Source: an uncultured Lachnospiraceae bacterium | Lineage (GTDB): Bacteria > Bacillota > Clostridia > Lachnospirales > Lachnospiraceae | Direction of reading: 5' to 3' | DNA: 47,651 nucleotides | Assembly (NCBI GenBank): GCA_947169235.1 | Contig: CAMVOY010000013.1 | Location: 1 to 47,651, forward strand | In this document: piece after piece, positions 121 to 21,199 of the stretch | Numbering within the stretch: position 1 is the stretch's first letter | Layout: each line of letters begins with the position of its first letter | Notes under the pieces: generated by a model | Databases searched by the model: none | The model's input: only the letters and a program-made list of their open reading frames with translations | What the model was told of the DNA's origin: nothing | Program-made: the position numbers and the translations under genes

Positions 121-1692
121 CTAAAACTGATTATAAATAAACTGCGCAGCATCGATACCGGATCCGTATTTTCCGAGCATAACCGTTGCCAAGAACAACA
201 TCAATAATAATACATACCTGACGATATAGGGTGTGCGCATAAGTCTTGCGCTCACTCTTTCTTTTCTTCCACACATACTCACGATGATCATCAGTACAAC
301 TCCGGCAGCAACTATGATATAGTCCGCAACACTCACTCCCATATCGAGAAGTTTTGCTCCTTTTACCGGGCAACTGAATATATCCGTAAACATATGTATA
401 AACTGTCTGACGGCAAGTTTTGCAGAATTGTAGACATCAAACAGTCTTATGAAGCACATAAGTAAAAATGTACGGCCGACCTGAAAAAGCCTGTATCCCC
501 ACGAACCCGTGAGCGTCGGATGCTTTTTATGAAATCTGTCATACGCGGGCTCAAGCTCGCCGGAGATAAGTATCACAACTCCGTTCACAACGCCCCACGC
601 CACAAAATGCCATGCAGCTCCGTGCCAGATGCCCGTCGCAACCCAGCACACCATCGTCGACAGATAAACAGCAACTCTTTTTGCTACCTTCATTCCGAAA
701 TGATTCTTCGAAAAAGTGGTGAGCTTCCTGAGCGGCTTAGATATACTGAACGGGTAGAAAACATAATCTCTGAACCACGTTCCCATTGTGATGTGCCAAC
801 GACGCCAGTACTCGATTATACTCTTTGAGAAGAATGGTCTTTCAAAGTTCTCTTCAACCCTTATCCCCAACATCTGAGCGATACCGATAGTGATGTCGAT
901 GCCTCCGGTAAAATCAGCATAGAGCACTATCGCCCAGAATATCATCATGATAAAAACATAACCGCCCGTATAGTGTTTCGCTCCTGCAAAGAGTTCCGTC
1001 ACCGCAGGCGAAAGCCTGTCCGCTATCACAAGCTTTTTGAAATAACCCCATAGTATCCTCTGCAATCCCTGACCGACCATCAGTCTGTCAAAATAATGCT
1101 TTTTATAAAGTGTTTCCGACAGGTCGCCGTAACGACTTATCGGTCCCTGAATGAGCTGTGGGAAGAATGTCACGAAGAGCAAAAACTTGGGATAATTCTT
1201 TTGCACCTCGCACTTGCCCCAGTACGCATCCAGAAGATAGCTGACGGCTTGAAAAGTATAAAAAGATATCCCGAGCGGAATGATCAGATCCGGTACGGAT
1301 ATCTCTTTTTCGGCCGATAAAAAATGATTGATATTTGTAACTACAAATGCCGTATATTTTGTCACGGCAAGTATTCCGATATTAAGGATAAGGCAAAGGA
1401 GCATAACTGTTTTCTTTTTTGAATTAAACTCCTTTTTCAGCATCTTTCTTTGTTCCTTTGATGCTGTCTCCTTCATACGTTCAAATGTATCATCCTGTCT
1501 GCTTATATATAAGCCCGCCAGATACACGGTAGTAGCTGTCGTGATTATATAAATAAGATATGTCCATCCCGCACAATAATAAAAGCCGAGACTCGCCAGT
1601 AACAGAAGCCAATACTGGAGTCTCTTGGGGATTATATAATATAATACAAACAGCCCTATTATAAAGGCTATAAACTCGTAACTGATAAACAT
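121..1692 (-). CDS. MBOAT-family O-acyltransferase (DltB/AlgI-like)
   Basis: This 523-residue polytopic membrane protein resembles the AlgI/DltB branch of the MBOAT family, which moves acyl groups from a cytoplasmic donor to extracellular glycans or teichoic acids. Its first hydrophobic segments fall at about residues 5-20 and 27-60. The family hallmark is clear: EYWRRWH ending at H300 and GIWHGAAW with the putative catalytic H357. At 523 residues it is nearer AlgI-type proteins than the roughly 400-residue DltB. It is last in a row with an adenylating enzyme and a carrier protein, so the donor is probably a carrier-bound acyl or aminoacyl group. The SD AAGGA lies about 10 bases before the ATG. 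No DltD is in the window. The family is secure; the D-alanyl substrate is inferred. Confidence 0.88.
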   Translation of the reverse strand: MFISYEFIAFIIGLFVLYYIIPKRLQYWLLLLASLGFYYCAGWTYLIYIITTATTVYLAGLYISRQDDTFERMKETASKEQRKMLKKEFNSKKKTVMLLCLILNIGILAVTKYTAFVVTNINHFLSAEKEISVPDLIIPLGISFYTFQAVSYLLDAYWGKCEVQKNYPKFLLFVTFFPQLIQGPISRYGDLSETLYKKHYFDRLMVGQGLQRILWGYFKKLVIADRLSPAVTELFAGAKHYTGGYVFIMMIFWAIVLYADFTGGIDITIGIAQMLGIRVEENFERPFFSKSIIEYWRRWHITMGTWFRDYVFYPFSISKPLRKLTTFSKNHFGMKVAKRVAVYLSTMVCWVATGIWHGAAWHFVAWGVVNGVVILISGELEPAYDRFHKKHPTLTGSWGYRLFQVGRTFLLMCFIRLFDVYNSAKLAVRQFIHMFTDIFSCPVKGAKLLDMGVSVADYIIVAAGVVLMIIVSMCGRKERVSARLMRTPYIVRYVLLLMLFLATVMLGKYGSGIDAAQFIYNQF

Positions 1693-1747
1693 TTTATAAC
1701 TATCCTTGTATATTCATACTGATATTTGTATGCCATATTATAAGGCG

Positions 1748-1771
1748 GAGTGATCGGCGTCCCGATCACTC
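1748..1771 (-). other. Perfect 10-bp hairpin over the ACP stop codon
   Basis: GAGTGATCGG (1748-1757) and CCGATCACTC (1762-1771) pair across a 4-base loop. The carrier-protein stop codon (1766-1768) lies in the stem. No U-run follows on the minus strand, so it is more likely an intra-operon RNA-stability or processing element than a full terminator. Confidence 0.55.
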
Positions 1772-2011
1772 ATCCAACAGTCTCTCTATCATATCAGTCA
1801 GGCTTTCAAGTGAATTGAAGTTCTCCGGCACAAAATCTCTCGCCGTAACCTCTACATCAAACTCCTCATTCAGCTCGGTGACCAGGGTCACCAGATCGAA
1901 AGAATCGAGGACCTTGCCATCGACAAGTCCTGTCTCATCCTCATAATCCACATCCTCATGAAGCTCGGTAAGCAGTGCAAGTATTCCCTCTCGAATCTCT
2001 TCTCTGTCCAT
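1766..2011 (-). CDS. Acyl carrier protein (DltC-like)
   Basis: This 81-residue acidic carrier protein has the phosphopantetheine attachment motif LDSFDLV, with Ser37 as the modified residue. The size and the LDS motif fit DltC-type D-alanyl carrier proteins and small acyl carrier proteins. The start at 2011 is chosen because GGAGG lies 7 bases upstream; an upstream in-frame ATG at 2107 would overlap the previous gene's tail and has no comparable site. The gene lies between a DltA-like adenylating enzyme and an MBOAT acyltransferase, so it probably shuttles the activated acyl group between them. A DltC role is likely but not proven. Confidence 0.87.
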   Translation of the reverse strand: MDREEIREGILALLTELHEDVDYEDETGLVDGKVLDSFDLVTLVTELNEEFDVEVTARDFVPENFNSLESLTDMIERLLDE

Positions 2012-2087
2012 TTTCTCCTCCATATCAGGGAACAGTCCCGGTTCCCCACGTTTTTTTACTCCCTTCCCGTGAACCTTGATTATATCA

Positions 2088-2118
2088 CAAACGGACGCTC
2101 TTTTCAAGCGTCCGTTTG
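2088..2118 (-). other. Perfect 12-bp hairpin over the adenylating-enzyme stop codon
   Basis: CAAACGGACGCT (2088-2099) pairs with AGCGTCCGTTTG (2107-2118) across a 7-base loop that contains the stop codon of the adenylating enzyme gene (2104-2106). On the minus strand it is followed by an A/T-rich stretch but no U-run. On the plus strand it is followed by TTTCTTTTT. It sits in the 92-base gap before the carrier-protein gene and could tune relative expression. Confidence 0.55.
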
Positions 2119-3630
2119 TTTCTTTTTGCTTTCTGCGTACATTTCTTTCAGTTTCATACGATCGAGCTTTCCGTTTGGCAAAAGTGGCATCGTTTCTATC
2201 TGCCTGATGGCATTTGGCACCATATACCGCGGGAGACGCTTTTTCAGTTCCTTGGTGAGCTCTCTCTTGTCGATATCGCCCACATAATAGAAAACGATCT
2301 TTTCATTCTCCCTGAAAAATACACAGGCACACATCTTCACACCCTCGACCCTCATCGCGTCGGCTTCTATCTCTCCGAGCTCAATACGGTGTCCCATATG
2401 CTTTATCTGGTGGTCCTTTCTGGAAGCAAAGTAGAGTTCTCCGTCCTTTCTGTAGCCGAGATCACCGGTATGATAGATCCTGTCATCGTATTCGGTCCTT
2501 AACGGATTCGGGGTAAATGCCTCATTTGTTTTTTCAGGATTTCTGTAATAACCCTTGGTAAGGCAGGTACCACGGATACAGATTTCACCCTCCTTCCCCT
2601 CGGGGACCGGGTTGCCATCCGCATCCAAAAGCAGTATCTCGGTATTTTTAAATGGTCTCCCTATGGGGATGACCTCCTCCTCCTCAAAAAATCTGTCAGC
2701 ATGGTAATAACAGCTCATGCCCGTAGCCTCAGTAGGTCCGTAGAGATTGAAAAAGTCCGCATCCGGCAGCGTCTTTTTCCAAAGATTGAACTGTCCTGCA
2801 GGGAATACCTCGCTCCCGAAAGCTATCTTTTTTAAGTATGCCGGTTTTACTATATCAAAGGTTCCAAAGCTTGAGATCATGGTGAGCGCCGATACGACCC
2901 AGCATATCGTATTGACCTTATGCTCATTCAGATACTCGACAAGCTTCGTCGGAAAAAGAAAGCACTCCGACGGTATCAGCCATGTCTTCGCACCGAACTT
3001 AAGCGTAGAGAAAACCTCCTTCATGCACGCGTCCAGATAGAGTGGTGCCTGCATACCGAACACGCAGCTTTCATCGAAGCCCAGGGTTTCGGTCAAAGTC
3101 TCCACGTAGTCAATTACACCTCTATGATAGCCTACGACGCCCTTTGGCACCCCCGTAGAGCCGGAGGTAAAAAGCACGTAAGCAGGATCGACATCTAACG
3201 CATTTTCTCTCACCTTTTTCAGCTCATCCTCGCAGACAGCATCCGGCAAGGCATCGTATGAAAGAATCTCGCCCGAAAAATCCAACTCCTTTGCGGTCTC
3301 CATCGTCGACTCGTCCGTGATCATAAATCTCGATTCTGTCGTCTCAAGTATAAGCTCGATCCTTCGTCTGGGCATCTCTACATCTATCGGTACGTAATAA
3401 CATCCCGCTGCCACCGTTCCGAAAAACGCGGTCAGTGTATAAGGGGACCTCTTCATAAAAATGATCACGGGCTCTTTTTCCGCGCCCGATCCTATGAGCA
3501 TGCTGCCCACCCTTTTCGCGCGGTCACAAAACTCCGCGAAAGTCAATACCAGCTCATCATCAGCAAAGGCCTCCCTGTCGGGAAACCTTTCTGCCGCCTC
3601 TTCCATGTATTCAAGAATATTTGTTTTCAT
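2104..3630 (-). CDS. Amino-acid adenylating enzyme, DltA-like (AMP-binding)
   Basis: This 508-residue stand-alone adenylation domain should activate a carboxylate with ATP and load it onto a carrier-protein thiol. Core motifs are present in order: FTSGSTGVPKG (154-164), NLYGPTEATG (295-304), YHTGDLG, the KDHQIKHMGHRIELGE hinge region, and PNGKLDR with the catalytic lysine near the C-terminus. Length and motifs match DltA (D-alanine:D-alanyl carrier protein ligase, about 500 residues). The SD GAGG lies 7 bases before the ATG. It starts 15 bases after the symporter-fusion gene and is followed by the carrier protein and MBOAT gene. D-alanine specificity is inferred from this neighbourhood, not read from the pocket. 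Confidence 0.88.
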   Translation of the reverse strand: MKTNILEYMEEAAERFPDREAFADDELVLTFAEFCDRAKRVGSMLIGSGAEKEPVIIFMKRSPYTLTAFFGTVAAGCYYVPIDVEMPRRRIELILETTESRFMITDESTMETAKELDFSGEILSYDALPDAVCEDELKKVRENALDVDPAYVLFTSGSTGVPKGVVGYHRGVIDYVETLTETLGFDESCVFGMQAPLYLDACMKEVFSTLKFGAKTWLIPSECFLFPTKLVEYLNEHKVNTICWVVSALTMISSFGTFDIVKPAYLKKIAFGSEVFPAGQFNLWKKTLPDADFFNLYGPTEATGMSCYYHADRFFEEEEVIPIGRPFKNTEILLLDADGNPVPEGKEGEICIRGTCLTKGYYRNPEKTNEAFTPNPLRTEYDDRIYHTGDLGYRKDGELYFASRKDHQIKHMGHRIELGEIEADAMRVEGVKMCACVFFRENEKIVFYYVGDIDKRELTKELKKRLPRYMVPNAIRQIETMPLLPNGKLDRMKLKEMYAESKKKQTDA

Positions 3631-3645
3631 CGTACTACCTCTAAA

Positions 3646-5256
3646 TCATTCTTCCCCATTTATCAGGACATCTCTGTTCAACTTTTTCCGCGCTCTGGCT
3701 CCCGACAGTATCTCCAATTGCAGGAACAGGATATTAAATCCGGTATCATGGAAATCTATAACCACCTCCAAGGCAGTGGCTATAAGCAGCGCACTGTCAG
3801 GTATACCCAGCTGAGAAAACAGTATGGCATACAGCGTCAACCCTGCACCGGGAAGCGGCGGAACTGCTATCGCCAAAAATGCTCCCGTTATCACTGCCGA
3901 CAACAGCCACATCGGGGTTATCTGTATATCATATGTTCCCGCAAAATAAACAGATATCACCATCAGATATACGATCGTCGTCTGCATATACATCACATTT
4001 CCCATTGGATATGCAAACCTGACATAGTTCCGGTCCACGCCGAGCTTTTTTTCACAATTCTCCATACCGAGTGTAAATGCCGCCATACTCGATGCAGTAG
4101 TAAAGGCGACAAAGGATGCCGGCAGAACTTTTTTTAATACAAGTATCGGAGAGCATTTCAGCCTGAAGGAATTATAAACGACCATCAGTATCATCCACCC
4201 TAAATTAATAACTATCAAAAGAGCAACAGGCTTCCACAGGGAAACGATAGCCCCCAGATCACCATTCCATATCTGATGGATCAGCGCTGCAAATACAAAG
4301 ATAGGTACGAGCGAACAGACAGATGAAGTCAGCCACTGGGAAAGCGTGGCTCCCTCCAGTACCAGACTGCGGATAAGCTTCGATCTCTCGCCGAGAGCAA
4401 GTAATCCCACCCCCACGAAGATACCTATCAATATGATCTGCAATGAGTTTCCTGACCAGAACGGATCTATTATATTGGACGGCGCGATATCGAAGATCAT
4501 CTTCGTAATATCCTTCAGATGAAACGTCATAGCCTGATCGGAACCGCCTGTGGCAGTCAAGCCGAGAATAAGGCATACTGCTGCCAACGCAACTATCGCA
4601 GTCAAAATGGATATCAGTACAAACCGGATTATCGTCTTTTTCCCGAGCCTGGATAGTGTGGAGCTGTCCCCGACTCCTATTATTCCACTCGAGATGGTAA
4701 ATGCTATCATGAATCCGGCAAAGGTTGAGAGCAACCCCAGAAAAACATTCATCACCGGGACAAGCATTGACTCATCGATCTCCGTCCTCAACCCACCGGG
4801 GATATGGCTGCCGAGGATACCTATTATCACGGCAAGGATGATCGCAGTTACTATCTTAAACACATGGCCGCGCTTGGCTCTGCCGGATACAACCATAGAG
4901 ACACAGTTTTTCCCCTTTCTGTATTCCCACGACGGAGCAAGGCCTATAGCTTCCAGAATTGAGTTTGCCTCCTGTCCGTCATCTGTCGGATCAAACGAGG
5001 CTCCATTATACTCTACCCTGAACACGTGCCTGCCATAATTCCTTCCGATCATCACACGGACCATCACTGCCGTATCCGAAGAATCCCGAATACGAAGCAA
5101 TATCTCCTCTACACTCAAAACCACACGAAGAGTATTGCGACTCTCCTCACCGATCTTCTCTAAATAGTTTCTGAGCTCCTCCGTTATCTCGGTGATCGCA
5201 TCATTGGTAAGTTCTTTTTCATTCCACTTTGTAGACATTTTTCCATGAGCATGCAT
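3646..5256 (-). CDS. Cation:dicarboxylate symporter with N-terminal RsbW-like domain
   Basis: This 536-residue protein has two parts. Residues 1 to about 130 resemble a Bergerat-fold (HATPase_c_2) domain, with an alpha helix in the N-box position (VEEILLRIRD), a G1-like EYNGASFDP and a glycine-containing C-terminal strand. The usual N-box Asn and G1 Asp are not evident, so ATP binding is doubtful. From about residue 133 there are multiple hydrophobic segments and the ending of the sodium:dicarboxylate symporter family, including GAGLTLY and an acidic/polar final helix. Substrates of the family are glutamate, aspartate, C4-dicarboxylates or serine/threonine. It lies directly downstream of a PP2C phosphatase and a STAS gene, which suggests that its cytoplasmic domain joins a partner-switching circuit. 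Starts at residue 1 or 7 are both possible. Confidence 0.82.
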   Translation of the reverse strand: MHAHGKMSTKWNEKELTNDAITEITEELRNYLEKIGEESRNTLRVVLSVEEILLRIRDSSDTAVMVRVMIGRNYGRHVFRVEYNGASFDPTDDGQEANSILEAIGLAPSWEYRKGKNCVSMVVSGRAKRGHVFKIVTAIILAVIIGILGSHIPGGLRTEIDESMLVPVMNVFLGLLSTFAGFMIAFTISSGIIGVGDSSTLSRLGKKTIIRFVLISILTAIVALAAVCLILGLTATGGSDQAMTFHLKDITKMIFDIAPSNIIDPFWSGNSLQIILIGIFVGVGLLALGERSKLIRSLVLEGATLSQWLTSSVCSLVPIFVFAALIHQIWNGDLGAIVSLWKPVALLIVINLGWMILMVVYNSFRLKCSPILVLKKVLPASFVAFTTASSMAAFTLGMENCEKKLGVDRNYVRFAYPMGNVMYMQTTIVYLMVISVYFAGTYDIQITPMWLLSAVITGAFLAIAVPPLPGAGLTLYAILFSQLGIPDSALLIATALEVVIDFHDTGFNILFLQLEILSGARARKKLNRDVLINGEE

Positions 5257-5296
5257 CTAAACAAGCTCTCCCCCTTTTAAATTTAATGATAAAATA

Positions 5297-6889
5297 TCAT
5301 TGTAATTCAACGCACAGCATGGTCAGATCATCAAACTGCTCCGCATCACCCGTAAACTTATATACATCTCTGTCTATAACCATAAGAATATCTTCCGGCC
5401 TGCCATCCGGTCTCGAGTTGACCGCCTTTAACAGGCGTTCCATACCAAACTGCTCGTCATTTTTATCCATCGCCTCAGGTACACCATCCGTGTATACCAT
5501 AACCTTTGAGCCGTGATCAAGAACAAGCTCGTACTCAGGAAACTCTATTCCGTTTTTTAAGCCCACCACAGGTCCATGTTTGTCCTGGACGATCTCAAAC
5601 TGACCTCCCCTGTGGTAAATCAGTGGTTTGTCATGACCGGCATTTGCAGCCGTCAGAATACCGGTTTTTACGTTTAACATTCCAAGCCATATCGTTACAA
5701 ACATCATCTCAGGATTGTTTGTGCATATCATATTGTTTACGTCTTTAAGGATAGCACCGGGATTACCTCCGGATAATACCCGCGCCTTGAGAAGACTCTT
5801 TGCCATCATCATAAACATGGCTGCAGGAACGCCCTTTCCTGACACATCGGCCATGATGATAGCCAGATGATCATAATCAACAAAAAAGAAGTCGTAGAAA
5901 TCTCCGCCAACCTCTTTTGCCGGCGTCATATCGGCATAGATCAACAGCTCATCACGATCCGGGAAAGCGGGAAACTTGCTCGGAAGTATTTCCGCCTGAA
6001 GCTTTGTTGCCAGATTGAGTTCCGTGTTTACACGCTGCTTTTCAAGCAAAATGCGGGTGTTTTCCACGATGTATTTATGTAGCTTTTTATCCATGTTTTC
6101 AAAGGAACGTGCAAGATTCTCTATCTCATCTCCCGTGTTTACATCGATAGTCACTTCACCTTCTCTGTCGGGATTCTCCGCCAATTCGACAACGGCCAGG
6201 TTAAGCTTTAATAACGGGCCTATTATCCTCCTTCGAACAAAGGAATAAAAGATGATCATAGTGACCACCATCACGATGAAAACATACAGCAATACGAAGA
6301 TTATGATACGTACTGCACTGGAACGGATATGCGGCATAAGTATATCCGACTCAACAACAGCGATCGTCTCTCCATTTTTGTTTTTCACGGGTGCGATCGC
6401 CGCAGCCAGAAACATATCGCCGTAACTGTAGGTGGCAAATCTCTTCTCTCCGGTCTTATACGCTTCAAAGACTTTTTCTTTTGGATAATCCCCACTGTAA
6501 TACCATTTATCCAAAAGCGGTCTGGCGTCATAATCCGACTGGGCATCCCAAATATACTTTATGCCATCTTCCTCCGGAATAAACACGTATAGGTATCGGA
6601 GATTGCCCTTATCCACCATCCCCTGCATTTCACGCTTCACATCAAAATAGGCGTCGTCAGTTTTCCCTGTAGTTATGTAACGTTCGATTTGAGCACTGTC
6701 CAGATCTTCGGCCACGATATCAGCATATGACGAAGAGAAGTCCTGATAGATACTCAGTACTTCTCTCTGAAGCAATAATCCCACAGCGAGGTCTATCACT
6801 ATGATCAGTATCGCAAAAAATATCAGCAATCGTATCAGCGTGACCGTAGCCAGTTTCCTTTTTCTGGTCTTATACTTATCCTGCCTCAC
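5297..6889 (-). CDS. Membrane PP2C/SpoIIE-type serine phosphatase with HAMP
   Basis: This 530-residue RsbU/SpoIIE-type phosphatase probably dephosphorylates a STAS protein. A first membrane segment (about 16-40) is followed by an extracytoplasmic sensor region (41-192), a second membrane segment (193-217), a HAMP domain (218-270) and a PP2C domain (300-530). Metal-binding and fold motifs are visible: EVGGDFYDFF with D330, MADVSGKG with D348, AGHDKP, YTDGVPEA and the terminal DDLT. The sensor has a Cache-like look (periplasmic WYYSGDYP-type region). The gene lies 30 bases after a STAS gene, its likely substrate. The external signal is unknown. Confidence 0.92.
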   Translation of the reverse strand: MRQDKYKTRKRKLATVTLIRLLIFFAILIIVIDLAVGLLLQREVLSIYQDFSSSYADIVAEDLDSAQIERYITTGKTDDAYFDVKREMQGMVDKGNLRYLYVFIPEEDGIKYIWDAQSDYDARPLLDKWYYSGDYPKEKVFEAYKTGEKRFATYSYGDMFLAAAIAPVKNKNGETIAVVESDILMPHIRSSAVRIIIFVLLYVFIVMVVTMIIFYSFVRRRIIGPLLKLNLAVVELAENPDREGEVTIDVNTGDEIENLARSFENMDKKLHKYIVENTRILLEKQRVNTELNLATKLQAEILPSKFPAFPDRDELLIYADMTPAKEVGGDFYDFFFVDYDHLAIIMADVSGKGVPAAMFMMMAKSLLKARVLSGGNPGAILKDVNNMICTNNPEMMFVTIWLGMLNVKTGILTAANAGHDKPLIYHRGGQFEIVQDKHGPVVGLKNGIEFPEYELVLDHGSKVMVYTDGVPEAMDKNDEQFGMERLLKAVNSRPDGRPEDILMVIDRDVYKFTGDAEQFDDLTMLCVELQ

Positions 6890-6919
6890 TCTATCTCCCC
6901 CTTTAGGAAACGACGCAGT

Positions 6920-7222
6920 TTAGATAATCGTAAGCATATTATCAAAGCCTGTCATCTCAAAAATGTCCATGATGTCCGCCGGTACATTTTTTACATTCAA
7001 TTCACCGGCTTTTGCCTGAAGCTGCTGGTCGGCCATGACAAATACGCGCAATCCGGCACTGGATACGTAGCTCAGTTTTTCGAGATCAAGGATAACTTTT
7101 TCAGCCGATCCTATGTAATGTGATATTTCTTCCGTTACCTGCGGTGACGAATTGGTATCCATCTTTCCCTCAATAAAAATAGTTACTTCTTTTCCGTTTT
7201 CTTCTGCTTTCAGATTTAACAT
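6920..7222 (-). CDS. STAS-domain anti-sigma factor antagonist
   Basis: This 100-residue single STAS domain resembles SpoIIAA/RsbV. The segment YVSSAGLRV contains Ser55, which aligns with the phosphorylated serine of RsbV-type antagonists. In that family the dephosphorylated form binds a kinase/anti-sigma partner and releases its target, and a PP2C phosphatase resets it. The phosphatase gene follows 30 bases downstream. No free-standing RsbW or sigma factor is in the window. The only RsbW-like domain nearby is fused to the symporter two genes on. AGGAGG lies close to the ATG. Confidence 0.92.
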   Translation of the reverse strand: MLNLKAEENGKEVTIFIEGKMDTNSSPQVTEEISHYIGSAEKVILDLEKLSYVSSAGLRVFVMADQQLQAKAGELNVKNVPADIMDIFEMTGFDNMLTII

Positions 7223-7263
7223 GATCAGTTCCTCCTGTGATAATATTGTTTAGCATAAAGCAT

Positions 7264-8052
7264 TTACGCATTCTCAATATCCCAAATATACTCCTCGCCC
7301 CAGCTGTACTGGTTCATAAACTCTCCTCTGTAGGCATTGATGGCTTCGGGATTTCCTTTCATAAACTCAAAATAGTCGCAATCCACTTTTTCGGGATTTA
7401 GCCTGTATTCATTTCTCCCGTGGTATAGAACATCCTCCTGCCCGATCTCCTTCAGGGTTTTTTTCAGATCCATTATCAGCGCCCCTATATAGGACTTCTG
7501 GGATTTTTTATTTTCATCCTCCCACAGTATATCACACAGTTCCAGGCGTGTGGCAGAGGCTCCGTTTTTGGCGGCAAGATATGCAAGTACCTCTTTTGTT
7601 TTGGACCTGGCGAACGGTAACGGTTTTCCATGGTATTCTGCCCAAAACTCGCCAAAGCATGTGAGTTTCAGAAGCTCAGGTTCACCTTTTGACTCTATCG
7701 GGTGGCGGAGATTGTTAATCTCCTCGCGAATATCATCTGCGTCCACCGGCTTTAACAGATAGCCCCCTATGTGCATTTTGTAGGCTGTCACAGCATAGTT
7801 CGGATACGCAGTGGTCATGATGATATTTGTGTTCGGAGAAACCTCTTTAATCTTCTTTGCCACCTCGAGTCCGCTCATGCCGGGCATCTCTATATCAAGA
7901 AAAACAAGTGATATGTCAACCTTGGTAAAGATCTCCAGAGCCTCGTTTCCGTTTGAAGCAACAAAAATAGACGAATCCGGAACCGCCTTTCGGATCTCCT
8001 TTTCCATACCAACACGCATCATTCTCTCGTCATCCGCAATCAGGATATTCAT
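7264..8052 (-). CDS. Response regulator with SARP-like output domain
   Basis: This 262-residue regulator begins with a receiver domain containing the acidic pair D7/D8, the phosphoacceptor D53 (FLDIEMPGMSG) and the conserved K101. From about residue 128 a winged-helix region (LTCFGEFWAEY, then ATRLELCDILW) and a short helical extension resemble SARP/BTAD-type transcription regulators. It heads the minus-strand operon with its own sigma-A-like promoter. No histidine kinase is adjacent. It faces the Tad pilus operon across the intergenic region, so both operons are possible targets. Confidence 0.88.
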   Translation of the reverse strand: MNILIADDERMMRVGMEKEIRKAVPDSSIFVASNGNEALEIFTKVDISLVFLDIEMPGMSGLEVAKKIKEVSPNTNIIMTTAYPNYAVTAYKMHIGGYLLKPVDADDIREEINNLRHPIESKGEPELLKLTCFGEFWAEYHGKPLPFARSKTKEVLAYLAAKNGASATRLELCDILWEDENKKSQKSYIGALIMDLKKTLKEIGQEDVLYHGRNEYRLNPEKVDCDYFEFMKGNPEAINAYRGEFMNQYSWGEEYIWDIENA

Positions 8053-8094
8053 AGCTGCCTCCGTAAATCTGTATTTTCGCCCTATTTGTATGGT

Positions 8095-8124
8095 ATTTTA
8101 CCACATTTGTCGAAAGAAAGTCAA
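8095..8124 (-). promoter_or_regulatory. Sigma-A-like promoter of the regulator/Dlt-like operon
   Basis: On the minus strand, TTGACT (8119-8124) and TAAAAT (8095-8100) are separated by 18 bases. They lie 43 bases upstream of the response-regulator start codon. The spacing and both hexamers are close to consensus. Confidence 0.65.
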
Positions 8125-8230
8125 GAAAAGGATTGTTGATAAAAAACATCAATAGTATGTTTGTTATATTTTTCATAGAAAACCCCATGTCATTTTGTCT
8201 GAATGGTCGAATTCGCTGTTCCAATGCTGA

Positions 8231-8316: not shown

Positions 8317-8826
8317 ATGGACTGCATTTTTGTATTCCTTGTACTCCTGCCTGCTTCCCTCTTTGATCTCTCCCGTTATCGGATTCCGAACGCGTTTCCG
8401 GTAGCAGGTCTTATCATTAGCCTATTCAGGCGTCTTGAGCTGCAGGGCTTGAACAGTGTATGGTCCTGGCTCGCAGGGATGATCATCCCTTTGATCCTAT
8501 TCTTTTTTCTTTTTCGATGGCGCATGTTTGGAGCATCGGATGGAAAACTCATGGCGGTAACCGGCAGCTACGTCGGTATTCCGGGTGTATTTTTTGTACT
8601 CTTTTATTCACTTATTATCGGGGCGATCTTTTCAATTATCAAAATAGTTATTTTACATAATTATAACGAACGAAAACAGCGTCTGATCGCGTATGTAAAT
8701 GAGACTATTATCACCAAGAGTATTCCGCGTTATTATGATCGAAAAAGAGATGGTGAATCCGGAGTTATACCATTCGGTGTAGCAATCGGTTTTGGTACAT
8801 TATTTTATATGATGGGAGAATGCTGA
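8317..8826 (+). CDS. Prepilin peptidase (TadV/CpaA-like, A24 family)
   Basis: This 169-residue membrane aspartic peptidase should cleave the leader of Flp-type prepilins at the cytoplasmic face. The two catalytic aspartates are in place: D17 in FDLSRYRIPN and D75 in GASDGK, the equivalent of the GxGD motif. It lacks the N-terminal methyltransferase region of PilD, as expected of TadV. It is the first gene of the Tad operon and its TGA overlaps the next gene's ATG. TAGGAGA lies about 7 bases before the start codon. A second A24 peptidase occurs later in the same operon. Confidence 0.88.
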   Translation: MDCIFVFLVLLPASLFDLSRYRIPNAFPVAGLIISLFRRLELQGLNSVWSWLAGMIIPLILFFFLFRWRMFGASDGKLMAVTGSYVGIPGVFFVLFYSLIIGAIFSIIKIVILHNYNERKQRLIAYVNETIITKSIPRYYDRKRDGESGVIPFGVAIGFGTLFYMMGEC

Positions 8827-9800
8827 TGGGAGAGAAAAAACTGTATCTGTACTTAAATGATACCGAATACGGAAAACGGTTCCAAAGATATCTGAATATA
8901 AACAGACATCCTAAACTCAGGATCGAAATGGTGACGGAACGGGATGATTTTTGGAGAGGCAGGGAGCACAAGGTTAGTGAGAATGAATACTGGCTTACTG
9001 ATGATATTAAAGGCGCAACCGATGACAGGAACGACCCGACTTCTCTGATCGTTATTGACGATCATACGGACGAGAACAGAAACAGAGTCAGCTGTCGGAC
9101 GAAAGCAAAAAACATGCTTATCATGATCCTTTCAATAATGGCTTTGGATTTAGAGGCGACCGTTGAGGCAGGTGCACCCATGCGGGGCATCTATGGAGTC
9201 TATTCGCCGTGGGGCGAGGAAGGCTCAGTGTTCTCCGCTCTCTTATCACAACGACTCTCAGACTACGGTAAATGTCTCTTTATAAATCTACAGGAGTTTC
9301 CTCTGTTTTACAAAGATGACACCACAGAGGATTGCAGTCTCGGTGAGATTCTTTTCAGAATAGATTCTCCCGGTCTTGAGAGCATCGTTGAGAGATCAAA
9401 GAAAAAATACGGTGCGGCAGAACGTCTTCCTGCGGTATCTCATTACAGAGATCTTTGGGATATAAATGCAGATGATATGGAAAGATTTTTAAACAGGCTG
9501 ACTGATGAACTTGGTTACAAATATGTTTTGGTCCATTTTAACGACGTAAGAGAAGCCGTTCCGATGGCTGATCTGATGAACGGAGTATTCTTCGTCAATA
9601 GATCCGGTAAAACAGATCCGTCTGTCAGATGGAAAAAATACGCCGCTACCGAAAAAAAGGAAGGTCAGATCATACCTGTGATAATGCCACGGGGATGGGC
9701 GGATTGGATCAATGAACTGGAAAAAAGCGAGCCGGAATGCTGGCTTAACGACACTGAGAAAAAAGAGTTTATCGATAGCATATGGAATCAGGGATCATGA
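8826..9800 (+). CDS. TadZ/CpaE-like pilus assembly protein, Walker motif degenerate
   Basis: This 324-residue protein sits where tadZ/cpaE usually lies, between the prepilin peptidase and the CpaF ATPase. An N-terminal receiver-like region is followed near residue 125 by GVYSPWGEEGSVFSALLS, placed like the P-loop of MinD/ParA relatives but lacking the key lysine and threonine. The remaining strand-helix pattern (KCLFINLQEF, YKYVLVHFND) fits a MinD-like fold. TadZ positions the pilus machine at the pole in other bacteria. The start at 8826 gives a TGATG overlap and places GGGAG 7 bases upstream; an ATG at 8820 has no spacing. Identification rests on position and weak motifs. Confidence 0.7.
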   Translation: MGEKKLYLYLNDTEYGKRFQRYLNINRHPKLRIEMVTERDDFWRGREHKVSENEYWLTDDIKGATDDRNDPTSLIVIDDHTDENRNRVSCRTKAKNMLIMILSIMALDLEATVEAGAPMRGIYGVYSPWGEEGSVFSALLSQRLSDYGKCLFINLQEFPLFYKDDTTEDCSLGEILFRIDSPGLESIVERSKKKYGAAERLPAVSHYRDLWDINADDMERFLNRLTDELGYKYVLVHFNDVREAVPMADLMNGVFFVNRSGKTDPSVRWKKYAATEKKEGQIIPVIMPRGWADWINELEKSEPECWLNDTEKKEFIDSIWNQGS

Positions 9801-11017
9801 ATGATGATATAAAGAATAAGGTCAGAGAACGAGTGATAGAGCAACTCCTCCCCGGTGAAGAGATCAGCGACGAGAGACTATTGTCAAGGATCGAGGAGCA
9901 GATCGAGCTGATAGCCGGGGATCGGTATCTGAGACTCGAAGAAAAAAAGTCGATTCGCCATGAGATTTTTAATTCACTTAGAAGAATGGATGTTTTGCAG
10001 GACATCTTAGAGGACGAGGATGTAACTGAGATCATGGTGAACGGACCCGATCATATATTTGTGGAACGCTCAGGCAGGATAACGGAAACAGGATTAAGGT
10101 TTGAATGCAGGGAGAGACTCGAGGATATCGCACAACAGATAGCCTCAACAGGAAACAGGATAGTCAACGAGTCGCATCCCATCCTTGATGCGAGACTTAC
10201 GGATGGATCGAGAGTTAACATCGTCGTACCGCCTGTCGCAATTGAAGGCCCGGTGATCACTATCAGGAAGTTCCCGAAAGAAGCGATGACCATGGATGAT
10301 CTGATCAGAATGGGTGCGGTAACAACCGAAGCAGAGGACTATCTGAAACAACTCGTGGAGGCCCGTTATAACATTTTTATCTCGGGAGGAACAGGCGCAG
10401 GCAAGACCACATTTTTGAACATACTTTCAAACTATATCCCGAGAAATGAGCGAGTGATAACGATCGAGGATTCCGCTGAACTGCAGATCAGAAATGTTGA
10501 TAACCTGGTCAGACTCGAGGCGAGAAACGCCAATGTCGAAGGGAAAAACGAGGTAACCATAAGAGATCTCGTAAAAAGTGCCCTGAGAATGAGACCGGAT
10601 CGGATCATCGTCGGAGAGATCAGAGATTCCGCCGCGATAGACATGCTGACGGCATATAATACGGGACACGACGGATCACTCTCTACGGGACACGCAAACT
10701 CCCCTTCAGACATGCTTAACCGCATGGAAACACTTGTCCTCATGGGACTGGATATACCGCTCGCAGCGATCCGCCAGCAGATAGCCTCTGGTATTGATAT
10801 TCTGGTGCACTTAGGCAGGCTCAGAGATAAATCCAGAAAGGTATTGGAGATCACTGAGATCTGCGATGTGGTCGACGGAAAGATAGAGTTAAATACACTC
10901 TTTCAGTATGTAGAGGATGGCGAAGAAAACGGAAAGGTTATCGGCAGCCTGAAAAGAACAACTAATAAACTGAGATCCACCGACAAGCTGAAACGCGCCG
11001 GAATAAATCCTTCATAA
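9797..11017 (+). CDS. cpaF: CpaF/TadA-type secretion ATPase
   Basis: This 406-residue ATPase powers assembly of Flp pili. A helical N-terminal region (about 1-75) precedes the core, which has ITEIMVNGP typical of CpaF, Walker A GGTGAGKT (197-204), an Asp-box ITIEDSAELQ, the RPDRIIVGEIRD Walker B region and the His-box STGHANS. Conservation looks complete, so the enzyme should be active. The start at 9797 overlaps the preceding stop as ATGA, with AGGGA just upstream. It is followed by the two platform proteins TadB and TadC. Confidence 0.95.
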   Translation: MNDDIKNKVRERVIEQLLPGEEISDERLLSRIEEQIELIAGDRYLRLEEKKSIRHEIFNSLRRMDVLQDILEDEDVTEIMVNGPDHIFVERSGRITETGLRFECRERLEDIAQQIASTGNRIVNESHPILDARLTDGSRVNIVVPPVAIEGPVITIRKFPKEAMTMDDLIRMGAVTTEAEDYLKQLVEARYNIFISGGTGAGKTTFLNILSNYIPRNERVITIEDSAELQIRNVDNLVRLEARNANVEGKNEVTIRDLVKSALRMRPDRIIVGEIRDSAAIDMLTAYNTGHDGSLSTGHANSPSDMLNRMETLVLMGLDIPLAAIRQQIASGIDILVHLGRLRDKSRKVLEITEICDVVDGKIELNTLFQYVEDGEENGKVIGSLKRTTNKLRSTDKLKRAGINPS

Positions 11018-11042
11018 ACCGATCACGAAAAGAGGTGAGAAC

Positions 11043-11840
11043 ATGATCAGCCTGAAACGAAAAAAGAAGAATAAAGCTCAAAACAATAATGCATTAAAGA
11101 TCGATTATAACAAGTACAATTATTCCATCAAAGAGAGAATGATCTACGGCGCCATAGGCGCAGCCGCAGGCCTCGGACTAATGTATCTGTTTTATTCAAA
11201 CATGATCATGTCAGCGCTCGGGGCGGTTATTGGAGCCGGTGTATTTTTAAGAATAAAAAAGAAAGGCTTATGTGAAAAGAGAAAATGGATGTTGATGACG
11301 GAGTTCAAAGATGCTCTTTCATCCATGACAGCCGCTCTCACGGCAGGCTACTCCATGGAAAACGCCGTTGCGGAAGCCTACAAGGATCTGAAGCTTTTGT
11401 ATGGGGAAGAAAGGATAATCCTTGCAGAGCTTAAGGACATAAAAGCAAAAACCGAACTGGGCGTCCCGATAGATGAGTCCTTCCACGACCTCGGTGTCAG
11501 AAGCGGAGTATCAGATATAGTGGTTTTTTCACAGGTATATGTAACAGCCAGAAAGAGTGGCGGAAACCTGGTCAAGATAATGAAACGAACTGCAGATGCG
11601 ATCAATGAAAAGATGGATATAGACCGCGAGGTCAGGACCATGATAGCCGGCAAACGTCTCGAGTCACTTTGCATGATGGTTATCCCTCTTTTGATAATCG
11701 TTTATTTGAGAGTATTCTCTCCGGGTTTTCTGAATCCCTTGTACCATGGCTTCGGAGGGAGGATTTTTATGAGCATCGCTTTAGGATGTTATTTCCTTGC
11801 AGTCTGCTGGAGCAAAAAGATAATGAACATCAGATACTGA
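11043..11840 (+). CDS. tadB: TadB-like inner-membrane platform protein (T2SSF)
   Basis: This 265-residue type II secretion F-domain protein forms the membrane platform with TadC. It has a lysine-rich start, membrane segments at about 37-75, a cytoplasmic helical F domain (about 85-210, with the conserved SMTAALTAGYSMENA region and GNLVKIMKR) and two C-terminal membrane segments. AGAGGTG lies about 6 bases before the ATG. It follows the CpaF gene by 25 bases. Length and order fit TadB. Confidence 0.88.
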   Translation: MISLKRKKKNKAQNNNALKIDYNKYNYSIKERMIYGAIGAAAGLGLMYLFYSNMIMSALGAVIGAGVFLRIKKKGLCEKRKWMLMTEFKDALSSMTAALTAGYSMENAVAEAYKDLKLLYGEERIILAELKDIKAKTELGVPIDESFHDLGVRSGVSDIVVFSQVYVTARKSGGNLVKIMKRTADAINEKMDIDREVRTMIAGKRLESLCMMVIPLLIIVYLRVFSPGFLNPLYHGFGGRIFMSIALGCYFLAVCWSKKIMNIRY

Positions 11841-11852
11841 TCGCAGATCATG

Positions 11853-11982
11853 ACGACGAAAAAGGGGGTACGGTATGTTATTAAAAAGAAAAAAAGGGAA
11901 GAAAAAAGAGGATAAAAATAAAACAACAATCGGCGGATTATTTTTAAAAAGTAATCGGTTGCGTACCCTCCTTTTTCGTCGT
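11853..11982 (+). repeat. 20-bp inverted repeat enclosing the tadC start
   Basis: The left arm at 11853-11872 (ACGACGAAAAAGG then GGGTACG) covers the ribosome-binding site of the next gene. The right arm at 11962-11982 is its reverse complement with one unpaired T at 11969. The arms are separated by about 90 A-rich bases that encode a lysine-rich N-terminus. Pairing would hide the ribosome-binding site. The pair could equally be the terminal repeats of a small inserted element. Confidence 0.6.
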
Positions 11983-13248
11983 TGTTCCACAAAGGATTTT
12001 GTCAGTGTGATGGAGCCGAGAGCCCGACCTGAAACGGAGATGGAAAAAATATGGGAAAAGAGGATCGGCCTCATAGTAGTTCTGATCATATCCGCGTTAC
12101 TCATGTGGGTTATCTGTTTTACATCCGATCCGCCCGAAGGCAGACTCAGTGATGGCAATCGTCTTACAAGACCTTCTGAAGCGGAGGATGTCACGCTGAG
12201 GGTATCCGGTGAGAGTAAGAACGGAAGATGGGAAAGACAGTTTTCGTTTGATCTGTCCGAAAGGATGTTTACCGATGAAGAGAAGGCAGAGATAGAAAAA
12301 CAGATTGACAATTATATAACAAAAACACTCCCCGGTAAAAACCCCTCGCTTAATAGTGTAGAAAAAAGCCTTTCATTTGTAAAAAGCGTGCCCGGTACCA
12401 ACGCAATCGTTGAATATGAATACGACGACAGATACTTAAAGTCAGACGGGTCCGCAGTCGCCAAAAACATACCGGAAGAAGGTGTGGATACGGAGATAAG
12501 AGCCAAGGCAAAATGGAAGAATTATTCCGGAGAATTCAATTACAATATTCACCTGATCCCTTCAGATATCTCAAGTTCAAAAGCCATTATAGCAGATGCA
12601 AAAAAACGGATAAAACGTTCCATCAAACAACAGGCGACCAAGTCCACGATAGAGCTTCCAAACGAATACACTTATTCGGAGGATGAGGCAGAAAAAGATT
12701 ACATGCCGGTATTTGTTATCCTGGGAATCATATTTATACTGCCCGTTTTATGGCGGGAACAACAAAAGCGAAAATTATCTTTTCGGGAAGATCAGCTGAT
12801 AAGTGATCACCCCGGGTTCATTAACAAGGTTATGCTTTTACTTGGTGCAGGCCTTACTCTGCGATATGCCATAGAAAGGATATCCGGCGAGTACGAACGC
12901 GAACTATCCGGCGGAGGTGAAAAACACTTCGTATACGAGGAACTATGCGTGACCATGCAGGAGCTCAGGGATGGTATGAGCGAAGGACAGGCGATCGAGA
13001 ACTTCGGAAAGAGATGCCGCTCGATGCCCTATATGAGATTCGCTTCAGTAGTCACTCAGAATCTTCGAAAGGGCGCCGAGGGTATCCTTGCAATCCTTGA
13101 AAAAGAAGCGAGTGAGTCTCTGATGGAGAGAAAGCAGGCAGCGTTAAGACGCGGAGAAGTAGCCGGTACAAAGCTTCTTTTTCCGATGATGATCATGCTC
13201 GGCCTGGTTATGGCTATAATCATGGTCCCTGCATTTATGTCAATGTAA
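11875..13248 (+). CDS. tadC: TadC-like platform protein with large N-terminal insertion
   Basis: This 457-residue T2SSF-family protein is larger than typical TadC (about 300). A very basic start (residues 1-16) is followed by a membrane segment (63-82), a roughly 190-residue non-membrane, probably extracytoplasmic segment (85-272), a second membrane segment (276-293), the F domain (about 315-430, with LLGAGLTLRYAIE and ELRDGMSEGQAIENF) and a final membrane segment. The AAGGGGG ribosome-binding site 6 bases before the ATG lies inside one arm of the inverted repeat 11853-11982. Translation could instead begin near residue 45, where similarity to other TadC proteins begins. The start is therefore uncertain. 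Confidence 0.82.
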   Translation: MLLKRKKGKKKEDKNKTTIGGLFLKSNRLRTLLFRRCSTKDFVSVMEPRARPETEMEKIWEKRIGLIVVLIISALLMWVICFTSDPPEGRLSDGNRLTRPSEAEDVTLRVSGESKNGRWERQFSFDLSERMFTDEEKAEIEKQIDNYITKTLPGKNPSLNSVEKSLSFVKSVPGTNAIVEYEYDDRYLKSDGSAVAKNIPEEGVDTEIRAKAKWKNYSGEFNYNIHLIPSDISSSKAIIADAKKRIKRSIKQQATKSTIELPNEYTYSEDEAEKDYMPVFVILGIIFILPVLWREQQKRKLSFREDQLISDHPGFINKVMLLLGAGLTLRYAIERISGEYERELSGGGEKHFVYEELCVTMQELRDGMSEGQAIENFGKRCRSMPYMRFASVVTQNLRKGAEGILAILEKEASESLMERKQAALRRGEVAGTKLLFPMMIMLGLVMAIIMVPAFMSM

Positions 13249-13272
13249 ACTAATGAGAAAGGAGGATGCGAC

Positions 13273-13467
13273 ATGGACAGATTGGAAAGATTTGGCACTG
13301 ATATCAAAGAGTACGCAAAAGATGATACGGCGATAGGCGTAGTTGAGATCATATTGATCCTTGTGGTACTTATCGCATTGGTTCTGTTGTTTAAAGATCA
13401 GATTGTCAAGGTGGTAAACAATGCGTTTAAAAGCTTTAATTCAGATTCAGCTGAGATCATCGGCTAG
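13273..13467 (+). CDS. Flp-type (type IVb) pilin
   Basis: This 64-residue protein has a short charged leader, DDTAIG, then VVEIILILVVLIALVLLF, giving a plausible prepilin cleavage after Gly22 and the Glu characteristic of type IVb pilins. The mature protein would be about 42 residues, mostly one hydrophobic helix. It is the only small major-pilin candidate in the operon and should be the structural subunit of the Tad pilus. GGAGG lies just upstream of the ATG. The next gene starts 47 bases before its stop codon. Confidence 0.9.
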   Translation: MDRLERFGTDIKEYAKDDTAIGVVEIILILVVLIALVLLFKDQIVKVVNNAFKSFNSDSAEIIG

Positions 13468-15460
13468 TGCAGGTATCACCGTAATGATGTCACTGGTGGG
13501 CGTTCTCATCATCGCCATGGTCGGTACATGTGTTGAGACCGCCCGCTATACAGCCTGTTCAGGCCAGGGCTGCGAAGTCCTGAGAGTCGGTACCGACGCA
13601 CTTTTAACAGAATACTCGAAACCTCTGTATGACAACTACGGGTTATTTTTCATAGAGGATAACGGAGAACCATTTGAGCGTGTGATAGCCCGATACGTAG
13701 GTGCCGGAATGAAGAACACTCCCGGCTTTACCGATTTCCTCAAGGGTGAACTCTGCTCTCTCAGTATAAACGAAAAGATCCATGTTGGTGATAACGAGGC
13801 CGAACCTCTGGCCGATGAGATCAAGGAGTACATGAAAAGATTTGCGACAGCTGACGGATTAAGATCACTTCTCGGGAAAGTGAGCAAACTGTCTGATGCA
13901 GAGGATACCGCTACAGCAATAGAGCAAACCGTAGACGAGGAACGCGAGGATACCAAGCTTGATAAAAGGATTCTCAGATTGATGCTTTTGGTCGACGGTG
14001 TACGGATATCCAGGAGCGGTTCAGTAACCTGCGATAAATATTTTGTCAAAAAATACGCTGTGGTTGACAACTACACCGGTGCTGATTTCGGTATCACTGA
14101 AGCAAAGGTATGGAACAGTGTAAAACGACAGATAAACAAAAACCCGGTAGAGTTTAACGACATCGGTCCCAAGTTTCTCTCAGGCATAAAAGCAGTCCGA
14201 GAAAAAACCGAGAAAGCGATCGAAGAAGGAGAAAGATTAAAAAGGGATTATGCTACCGCAAAGCACTCTGATATGGCAGCAAGGATAATAGCAGGATTAC
14301 CATCTCTTGCCGGAAATCTGAGAGTACTTAAGGAAACGGAAAAGCTCCTTTCAAACGTTAATACTTCCGTCAAAGAAACAAAACTAAAACTCAAAGAACT
14401 CTGGAAGGATTACGATACAGACAGTCTGTCATTTGATTACTCCGGAGTATCGGCAGCAAAGGGAGATGATGCAGATCCATTGAATTCACTTGGTTCAGCT
14501 ATAGGCGACGGTATCCTTTCACTCGTTTGCAAAAACCCCGAAAAGCTATCCGAAAAAGGAATAAAAAAGCCGGATAAATATGCGGAATACTATAAATCTC
14601 AACCGGTCAAAAAAGATGATTATACAAACAGGGTGAAGTCTCTGACGCAGGACAGAGAGGTAAGTCTATCCGGCACATTAGGCGATGTTGTCGAGTATGG
14701 TCTCGATGAGTTTATGCTCGATTCATATATCACAAAGATGTTTCCCAGTTATATTGAAAAGAATGAAAAAAAGGATAAAGACGGTAACAAATGGAAACGT
14801 TCTCTTAACTATGGATGGGAATACGTGGTGGCGGGAAACGGAAGTGATAAGTCAAATCTGGAATCAGTTATCTCCAGGATCCTTGCATTACGATCCATTA
14901 CCAATTTTACTGCGATACTCGCCGATCCCATAAAAAGAGCCGAGGCATTTGCTGCAGCAACCGCTGTTGTAGGTTTTACCGGACTTGTATTTTTGATTCA
15001 TTTTACTCAGACGCTTTTTATAGCAGCGTGGGCCTTTGCGGAAAGCCTGTGTGATATCGCAGCTTTACTTCAAAAAAGAGATGTGCCTCTTATCAAAACA
15101 AGCGCTCAAATAAAGACAAGTTTTCCGGAGATGTTTTTACTTACAAACGGAGCCATCTGTTCCAGAGCCATGAGATACACACCTGAGTCAGCTATGTCAT
15201 TCGGATATAAGGAATACATCATAATGTTTCTCATGATGACACCCGGGAAACTTTACAGGATTATGGATCTGATTGAAAACGATATGAAAAAGAATGGATA
15301 TGATGGATTCTCGATCGGAAAATGCGTCTTTAAGATCGATGTGGAAGCAGGCTTCAGATTCCCTGCAAAGTTCTTTCATCTACCCGGTATATCCCGGATA
15401 CTCAACAGGGACCTGTCCGGATATGAATATAACTGCCGGATATCTGCCGGATATTTGTAA
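13421..15460 (+). CDS. TadG-like/DUF5702-type pilus-locus protein
   Basis: This 679-residue protein has an N-terminal membrane anchor (about 17-40, MMSLVGVLIIAMVGT), a long soluble region rich in charged helices, and a second hydrophobic stretch near residues 505-550. This fits large TadG-like or DUF5702 proteins of clostridial Tad loci, which are thought to be minor pilins or anchors on the outer face of the membrane. AAGGTGG 6 bases before ATG supports the start, which overlaps the pilin gene by 47 bases in another frame and suggests translational coupling. Its exact role is not known. Confidence 0.75.
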   Translation: MRLKALIQIQLRSSASAGITVMMSLVGVLIIAMVGTCVETARYTACSGQGCEVLRVGTDALLTEYSKPLYDNYGLFFIEDNGEPFERVIARYVGAGMKNTPGFTDFLKGELCSLSINEKIHVGDNEAEPLADEIKEYMKRFATADGLRSLLGKVSKLSDAEDTATAIEQTVDEEREDTKLDKRILRLMLLVDGVRISRSGSVTCDKYFVKKYAVVDNYTGADFGITEAKVWNSVKRQINKNPVEFNDIGPKFLSGIKAVREKTEKAIEEGERLKRDYATAKHSDMAARIIAGLPSLAGNLRVLKETEKLLSNVNTSVKETKLKLKELWKDYDTDSLSFDYSGVSAAKGDDADPLNSLGSAIGDGILSLVCKNPEKLSEKGIKKPDKYAEYYKSQPVKKDDYTNRVKSLTQDREVSLSGTLGDVVEYGLDEFMLDSYITKMFPSYIEKNEKKDKDGNKWKRSLNYGWEYVVAGNGSDKSNLESVISRILALRSITNFTAILADPIKRAEAFAAATAVVGFTGLVFLIHFTQTLFIAAWAFAESLCDIAALLQKRDVPLIKTSAQIKTSFPEMFLLTNGAICSRAMRYTPESAMSFGYKEYIIMFLMMTPGKLYRIMDLIENDMKKNGYDGFSIGKCVFKIDVEAGFRFPAKFFHLPGISRILNRDLSGYEYNCRISAGYL

Positions 15461-21164: not shown

Positions 21165-21199
21165 GATGATACCTCCTATTTAACAACGAACCTTCACTT

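Follow-up and report, generated by a model that had tools for sequence, protein, structure and literature searches.

A putative partner-switching gene block with an RsbW-fold transporter fusion in front of a Dlt-like operon of a Lachnospiraceae bacterium

Genes at the left end of the contig

The window analysed here, a stretch of 47,651 nucleotides, is the left end of contig C13 from genome G000, an uncultured Lachnospiraceae bacterium with an assembly of 2.37 Mb in 106 contigs. A row of seven minus-strand genes lies at its left end and encodes, in order of reading, a response regulator (RR), a STAS protein, a SpoIIE-type phosphatase, a fusion of an RsbW-fold domain to an SLC1/SDF transporter, an adenylation enzyme (A-domain), a carrier protein and an MBOAT acyltransferase (Table 1). 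The gaps between them, from RR to MBOAT, are 41, 30, 40, 15, 92 and 73 nt, and both the coordinates and the Pfam matches bear out this part of an earlier, sequence-only reading of the locus. That reading went on to see a single operon in which a partner switch, behind one clear promoter, serves an acylation pathway. We find instead that the seven genes are two units, a partner-switching block (RR, STAS, SpoIIE and fusion) and a Dlt-like operon.

Table 1. Features of the left end of the window (G001, genome of a relative; C28, another contig of G000)
Feature	Position	Strand	Basis
Response regulator (RR), OmpR/SARP-like winged-helix C-terminus, 262 aa	7264-8052	-	Response_reg 85.5 bits
STAS protein, anti-sigma-antagonist type, 100 aa	6920-7222	-	STAS 61.1 bits; TIGR00377 above cut-off
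SpoIIE-type PP2C phosphatase, membrane-bound, HAMP, 530 aa	5297-6889	-	SpoIIE 163.6 bits, HAMP 28.6 bits
RsbW-fold + SLC1/SDF transporter fusion, 536 aa	3646-5256	-	SDF 198.9 bits; family alignment; predicted fold
RsbW-fold N-terminal domain, degenerate ATP motifs, modelled stretch 118 aa	4885-5238	-	Predicted fold
SLC1/SDF transporter domain, residues 133-509	3730-4860	-	Pfam SDF range
Block of about 4.5 kb without counterpart at the same site of G001	3631-8137	-	Breaks in homology to G001
Promoter-like site TTGACT-18-TAAAAT before RR, within the inserted block	8095-8124	-	Pattern scan; G001 homology stops short of the site
DltA-like adenylation enzyme (A-domain)	2104-3630	-	AMP-binding 238.1 bits; TIGR01733 above cut-off
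Promoter-like TTGAAA-17-TATAAT (2107-2079) overlapping a 13-bp hairpin (2087-2119)	2079-2119	-	Pattern and hairpin scans
DltC-like carrier protein, 81 aa	1766-2011 (ATG at 2011)	-	PP-binding 27.6 bits
10-bp hairpin, carrier/MBOAT junction	1748-1771	-	Hairpin scan
DltB-like MBOAT acyltransferase	121-1692	-	MBOAT 57.1 bits; TIGR04091 162 bits
Hairpin-rich contig end; first 55 bases = end of contig C28	1-97	.	Exact sequence match

The transporter fusion and its partners

The phosphatase lies far above the SpoIIE cut-off of 25 bits, which places it with the SpoIIE/RsbU-type PP2C enzymes. The STAS protein retains the serine of a VSSAG motif, which is common to the STAS proteins of the f11/f17 operons described below, and by its sequence it qualifies as the antagonist of a partner switch; we take the conserved serine of the SSAG motif to be the phosphorylatable site. 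The RR had been called SARP-type, which its match to Trans_reg_C (23.2 bits, below the cut-off of 26.2) supports in part, while BTAD was not among its Pfam matches at E <= 0.01. The order RR-STAS-SpoIIE recurs in three other genomes, G049, G006 and G004, the last with its SpoIIE gene truncated at the end of the contig; in G006 and G004 a histidine kinase gene lies upstream. What comes after SpoIIE varies: G024 has a free RsbW, G019 an ECF-sigma-like gene and the window the transporter fusion; in G001 RsbW is fused to SpoIIE itself, as a HATPase_c_2 domain, while the SpoIIE of the window has no C-terminal RsbW. A SpoIIE search of 39 genomes of the genus and 397 of the family, with 30 loci among the family matches opened at 1.5 kb to read the neighbours, gave no second case of the four-gene order of the window. 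A split locus in G004, with RR-STAS-SpoIIE apart from the fusion, was considered and dropped, as no SpoIIE end was found ahead of the G004 fusion. At L071 (region 4256-6748) and L019, an RR 64-66% identical to that of the window lies 40 nt upstream of an RsbW-fold/SDF fusion of a different subfamily, and at L071 a histidine kinase gene precedes this RR.

Pfam reports no RsbW-type domain for the fusion protein of the window, and a profile search of its N-terminal domain alone against PDB sequences returned nothing significant (best E 0.42). The domain could nevertheless be recognized as RsbW-like, as had been suggested, through its relatives, 5 of 31 of which match HATPase_c_2, through profile comparison and through its predicted fold, which is that of RsbW, SpoIIAB and SiaB, the serine kinases that bind STAS proteins. 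On the other hand, the G1, N-box and G2 motifs, which we take to make up the ATP site, are degenerate. The G1 Asp is absent in all 62 aligned fusions, a GLGI-like motif in the G2 stretch occurs in none of the 62, and 50 have no N-box Asn, the window among them with Arg at this position, so that the window domain has none of the three marks of an intact kinase. Free and SpoIIE-fused RsbW proteins of relatives retain all these motifs. On the alignment the decay is uneven across the fusions, since 12 of them retain the N-box Asn. The best short free kinase candidate in the genome lies at G000:C5:14395-14772, an unfused HATPase_c_2 protein whose frame has 134 aa.

The fusion is present in at least 14 of the 39 genomes of the genus. 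Outside it, the order STAS, SpoIIE-RsbW, fusion occurs in five genomes of two other families (f11/f17; L216-L220), and a sixth, L191, is cut by a contig end. In L217, which was scanned in full, the SpoIIE protein combines a 5TM sensor with SpoIIE and HATPase_c_2 domains. In both operons that were scanned, L217 and L219, the gene after the fusion encodes a fused amino-acid ABC transporter. The RsbW fused to SpoIIE in these operons has intact motifs and shares its operon with a degenerate RsbW fold, the pattern expected if the degenerate domain is a dock. Conservation in a relative, the check named in the earlier reading, was not found for the seven-gene order as far as we searched, but was for its STAS-SpoIIE-fusion part. 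A STAS or SpoIIE gene lies within 3.5 kb of ten of the 62 fusions (4/44 in one set and 6/18 in another), and strongly supported branches of their tree force at least five changes of this trait; in a small control, 33 plain SDF transporters read with up to 1.5 kb of flank, no such neighbour was seen. We conclude that the link to STAS and SpoIIE is real in one conserved operon type; for the fusion family as a whole it is suggestive, not proven.

It may be noted that contig-edge fragments (L013, L027, L030), L143, which is not a fusion, and L229, a cut transporter end only, were excluded, that L130-L133 and L142 are the same records as L060-L064, and that fusion-length matches lie outside the set at G005:C123, G007:C1, G009:C85, G117:C8, G165:C81, G573:C280, G745:C42 and G298:C2. 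A fixed set of neighbours was looked for and rejected, the nearest fusions having CheW-RR and TIR-domain proteins (G001), GH26 (G005) or a 5'-nucleotidase (G019) beside them. A STAS domain fused to an APH-type phosphotransferase stands beside a fusion transporter at L120:6902-8842, where it is also fused to acetolactate decarboxylase, and at L128:5950-7089; it is possibly an alternative kinase for STAS.

The transporter domain exceeds the SDF cut-off of 27.9 bits several-fold and belongs to SLC1/SDF; its nearest solved relatives are aspartate transporters, and glutamate transporters are also among the solved ones. Position 397 (GltPh) sets specificity in SLC1 proteins, Cys at this position permitting serine and alanine, according to PMC6066518. 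The window has Asp (residue 504) in place of GltPh Arg397, a column that holds Asp in 13 and Arg in 8 of the 62 fusions; this position sets side-chain specificity, and with Asp rather than Arg there an acidic substrate is unlikely. Asp 501 and Asn 508 are present in the window and kept in 14/14 and 13/14 members of its close group, at positions which are presumably the amino-acid backbone contacts of SLC1 proteins. The NMDG sodium-site motif is replaced by YMQT (over the fusions its column has Asn in 25/62 and Asp in 23/62), and with this motif lost the protein may be coupled differently or serve as a sensor. Our best guess from these residues is a substrate that is amino-acid-like and non-acidic. 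A gene for an M20-family amidohydrolase/peptidase lies directly downstream of the fusion in L136-L138, with a 4-nt overlap in L136 and L137, and hints at an acylated amino acid or peptide. Neighbouring genes as clues (M20 in L136-L138, the 5'-nucleotidase at L062 and L140, the ABC transporter in L217 and L219) did not settle the substrate.

The Dlt-like operon and the probable insertion of the block

The likeness of the last three genes to a Dlt pathway holds, but none of them reaches the equivalog cut-off of its family: the A-domain scores 266 bits against 560 for DltA (TIGR01734), the MBOAT protein 162 against 375 for DltB (TIGR04091) and the carrier 24.6 against 52 for DltC (TIGR01688). Another 11 of the 39 genomes of the genus have a homologue of the A-domain, at 58-90% identity, and the carrier gene follows it in 10 of the 11 stretches (L078-L087). 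Homologues of RR, STAS, SpoIIE and the fusion were found at none of these 11 loci within the stretches covered, several of which end near the A-domain gene (1.4 kb upstream of it in G001, about 1 kb in L084). G001, whose A-domain and MBOAT proteins are 90% and 95% identical to those of the window, allows the site itself to be compared. The DNA upstream of RR (window 8686-8138) is homologous to that upstream of the A-domain gene in G001, where the leader continues straight to a promoter-like TTGCAA-17-TATACT of its own (read by eye) and the A-domain start, and the prepilin-peptidase gene beyond RR is common, of 14 loci tested, only to the window and G001. On this comparison the window looks to carry an insert of about 4.5 kb that separates the leader of the Dlt-like operon from its first gene, and insertion is likelier than loss in G001 because the other A-domain loci are also without the block. 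A single ancestral seven-gene operon is rejected on the same two facts, 0/11 A-domain loci with the block and its absence from G001 at this site; together with the separate promoter-like site described next, they do not support the idea of a conserved operon of switch and acylation pathway. The acylation link looks like a lineage-specific promoter capture rather than an ancestral pathway, the envelope half being a neighbour acquired through the insertion with which the switch may possibly have a working link.

Nor does the row stand behind one clear promoter. The site before RR (8124-8095) matches at 10/12 positions, but the best minus-strand match, 11/12 with a TG before the -10, lies at 2107-2079, between the A-domain and carrier genes, with its -35 hexamer inside the loop that a perfect hairpin of 13 bp encloses. 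These sites are pattern matches, not mapped starts, and the region has 24 of them against 16.3 +/- 4.3 in shuffles, so that no single match is proof. G001 shares the 2107-2079 site, its hairpin and the 92-nt spacer between the A-domain and carrier genes, while this spacer is -19 to 32 nt in nine other loci with both genes. Since these elements are common to the two genomes, it is probable that carrier and MBOAT are served not only by the RR promoter but also by one of their own. The strong internal site comes after the adenylating gene, not before it. Only 15 nt separate the A-domain gene from the transporter gene, and it is probably co-transcribed with the block. The hairpin stem (2087-2119) is kept in G001 (L078, about 2890-2935) through G-U pairs, and the hairpin could be an operator or an RNA element.

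A look for dltD or another SGNH gene left of the window had been suggested, and a DltD-like gene was found at G000:C28:31424-32758, 84 nt from the right end of that contig; we infer its adjacency from the 55 exact bases that the end of C28 and the left end of the window have in common. It is 87% identical to the gene after MBOAT in G001, and the genes that follow it are similar in size and order to the followers in G001. The GDSL match of the G001 homologue, at 21.1, is below the cut-off of 32.9. By the contig overlap, the hairpin-rich spacer between the MBOAT and DltD-like genes is about 150 nt long, compared with about 10 nt in G001, and it may have broken the assembly.

Divergent from RR, a plus-strand gene run (window 8317-15460) opens with the prepilin peptidase (Pfam Peptidase_A24) and includes a DUF5702 protein (13421-15460); the genes between these two we take to resemble a Tad-type pilus cluster. 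A flagellin gene (19689-21164, minus strand) lies just downstream of a gene for a 993-aa DUF6240 protein (region 19689-24181). Rfam and tRNA searches across the window gave no matches.

Proposed working and comparison with known systems

We propose that an outside ligand would be sensed by the membrane-bound SpoIIE phosphatase, which, like other members of its family, would dephosphorylate the STAS protein, and that dephosphorylated STAS would dock on the RsbW-fold N-terminus of the SLC1 transporter and alter its activity. By prediction this domain keeps its fold, but on the alignment it has neither the G1 Asp nor the G2 loop, and without them it should not itself be the kinase. The kinase would come from another protein, which in f11/f17 is fused to SpoIIE and here may be the C5 candidate, and RR would set the expression of the block. 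The likely output of the switch is the transporter, not a sigma factor, because other families have the same run of STAS, SpoIIE-RsbW and fusion and because the fused domain has the fold of STAS-binding kinases. The partner switch with a likely transporter output, as read earlier, is supported, and the integrated acylation operon is not. Taken together, a four-gene partner-switching module with a transporter output, which works as proposed and was inserted after the leader, ahead of the first gene, of a separate Dlt-like operon for envelope acylation, is in our judgement somewhat probable. We put forward tentatively, as quite possible, the wider claim that there is a clostridial SLC1 family with a kinase-dead RsbW dock, in which STAS phosphorylation opens or closes uptake within seconds and without a sigma factor, that the STAS/SpoIIE pairing arose several times, and that the promoter of the envelope-acylation operon was captured here.

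Several observations weigh against this account. As many as 52 of the 62 fusions, including the four nearest to that of the window (L060-L063), have neither STAS nor SpoIIE within 3.5 kb, and the enrichment over plain SDF transporters, with P 0.011 on all rows, falls to 0.095 when the f11/f17 clade is counted once. The f11/f17 fusions are only about 31-33% identical to that of the window, their RRs are of the LytTR type (L217, L220) and the sensor of their SpoIIE differs (5TM in L217). Furthermore, the direct profile match of window-type N-terminal domains to free RsbW is weak (29.6% probability), and the N-box Asn is kept in 12/62 and the N-box Glu in 57/62 fusions. The many fusions without such neighbours would fit a neighbourhood due to chance, where the transporter is under an RsbW-fold domain that works with a different partner, and a free RsbW and sigma factor elsewhere answer to the STAS-SpoIIE pair, as would the relatives in which the pair precedes a free RsbW (G024) or an ECF-sigma-like gene (G019) or has a fused RsbW (G001). 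We consider this unlikely in view of the gene order kept in five genomes of two families, the five or more changes of neighbour trait on the tree and the match of the fold to STAS-binding kinases. The retained Glu and the intact fold, in a block that encodes no other kinase, would suit a fused domain that is still active, phosphorylating STAS while SpoIIE reverses the reaction, so that the transporter reports nutrient flux to the switch. However, the loss of the G1 Asp and the GLGI-like motif throughout the alignment, the Arg at the N-box Asn position of the window and the presence in the f11/f17 operons of a separate kinase with all three motifs make an active kinase very unlikely.

The integrated pathway of the sequence-only reading, in which the switch adjusts how much of a dicarboxylate or amino acid is taken up and the A-domain, carrier and MBOAT proteins go on to load this compound onto the envelope, draws on the tight spacing, with 15 nt between fusion and A-domain, and on the Asp 501 and Asn 508 that the window shares with its close group. 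We regard it as highly improbable, as the block is missing from all 11 other A-domain loci, the nearest relatives of the fusion stand beside unrelated genes, the promoter-like site of carrier and MBOAT is common to G001, and Asp rather than Arg at the specificity position speaks against acidic substrates. An assembly chimera in this metagenome-derived contig might be suspected in a genome of 106 contigs, but it is scarcely credible: it needs two independent joins at one site, with colinearity to G001 regained on both sides, the DltD-like gene and its followers are colinear with G001 as well, all reading frames are whole, and the G+C of the block (0.449) is like that of its flanks (0.455 and 0.440).

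Sigma factors are the main known targets of partner switches, alongside a few enzymes such as SiaD; if the proposed working is true, a transporter with an RsbW fold makes membrane transport a direct output of the switch. The fusion also allows a simple test of whether RsbW domains spread as docks after loss of kinase activity, a question which, with the fusion in so many genomes of the genus, is not tied to one odd contig, and the insertion illustrates the takeover of an operon's front by a signalling block unrelated to it. No description of an RsbW domain fused to a transporter was found in literature titles and abstract openings, in which subscription journals are thinly covered, so that this is not proof of absence.

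The acylation genes resemble the dltABCD D-alanylation operon in having an A-domain, a carrier, an MBOAT protein and then a putative GDSL-type protein (G001), and differ from it in their order, A-C-B-D, and in their scores below the Dlt equivalog cut-offs. The transporter shares the SDF domain of GltPh, GltTk, EAAT and ASCT2, but has an extra RsbW-fold N-terminal domain, Asp in place of Arg397 and no NMDG motif. With RsbU-RsbV-RsbW and SpoIIE-SpoIIAA-SpoIIAB of Bacillus, the block has in common a SpoIIE-type PP2C phosphatase, a STAS protein with the conserved Ser and an RsbW/SpoIIAB fold; unlike in those switches, the fold is here fused to a transporter and lacks the ATP motifs, and the block contains no sigma factor. 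SiaABCD of Pseudomonas aeruginosa is a precedent for direct control of an enzyme by a partner switch (PMC8457831); there the output is a diguanylate cyclase, whereas here it would be a transporter, and the target here carries the kinase-like fold. STAS domains also act on transporters in MlaB-MlaF, where a STAS protein is bound to the ATPase of an ABC transporter (PMC7367683), and in SLC26/SulP transporters (PMC8256260). In contrast to both, the STAS protein is free here and the transporter has the RsbW-type partner, and the portions of those two reports available to us describe no phosphatase. A partner switch beside an RsbW-fold transporter is a real and unusual arrangement, a variant with precedents in SiaABCD and MlaB.

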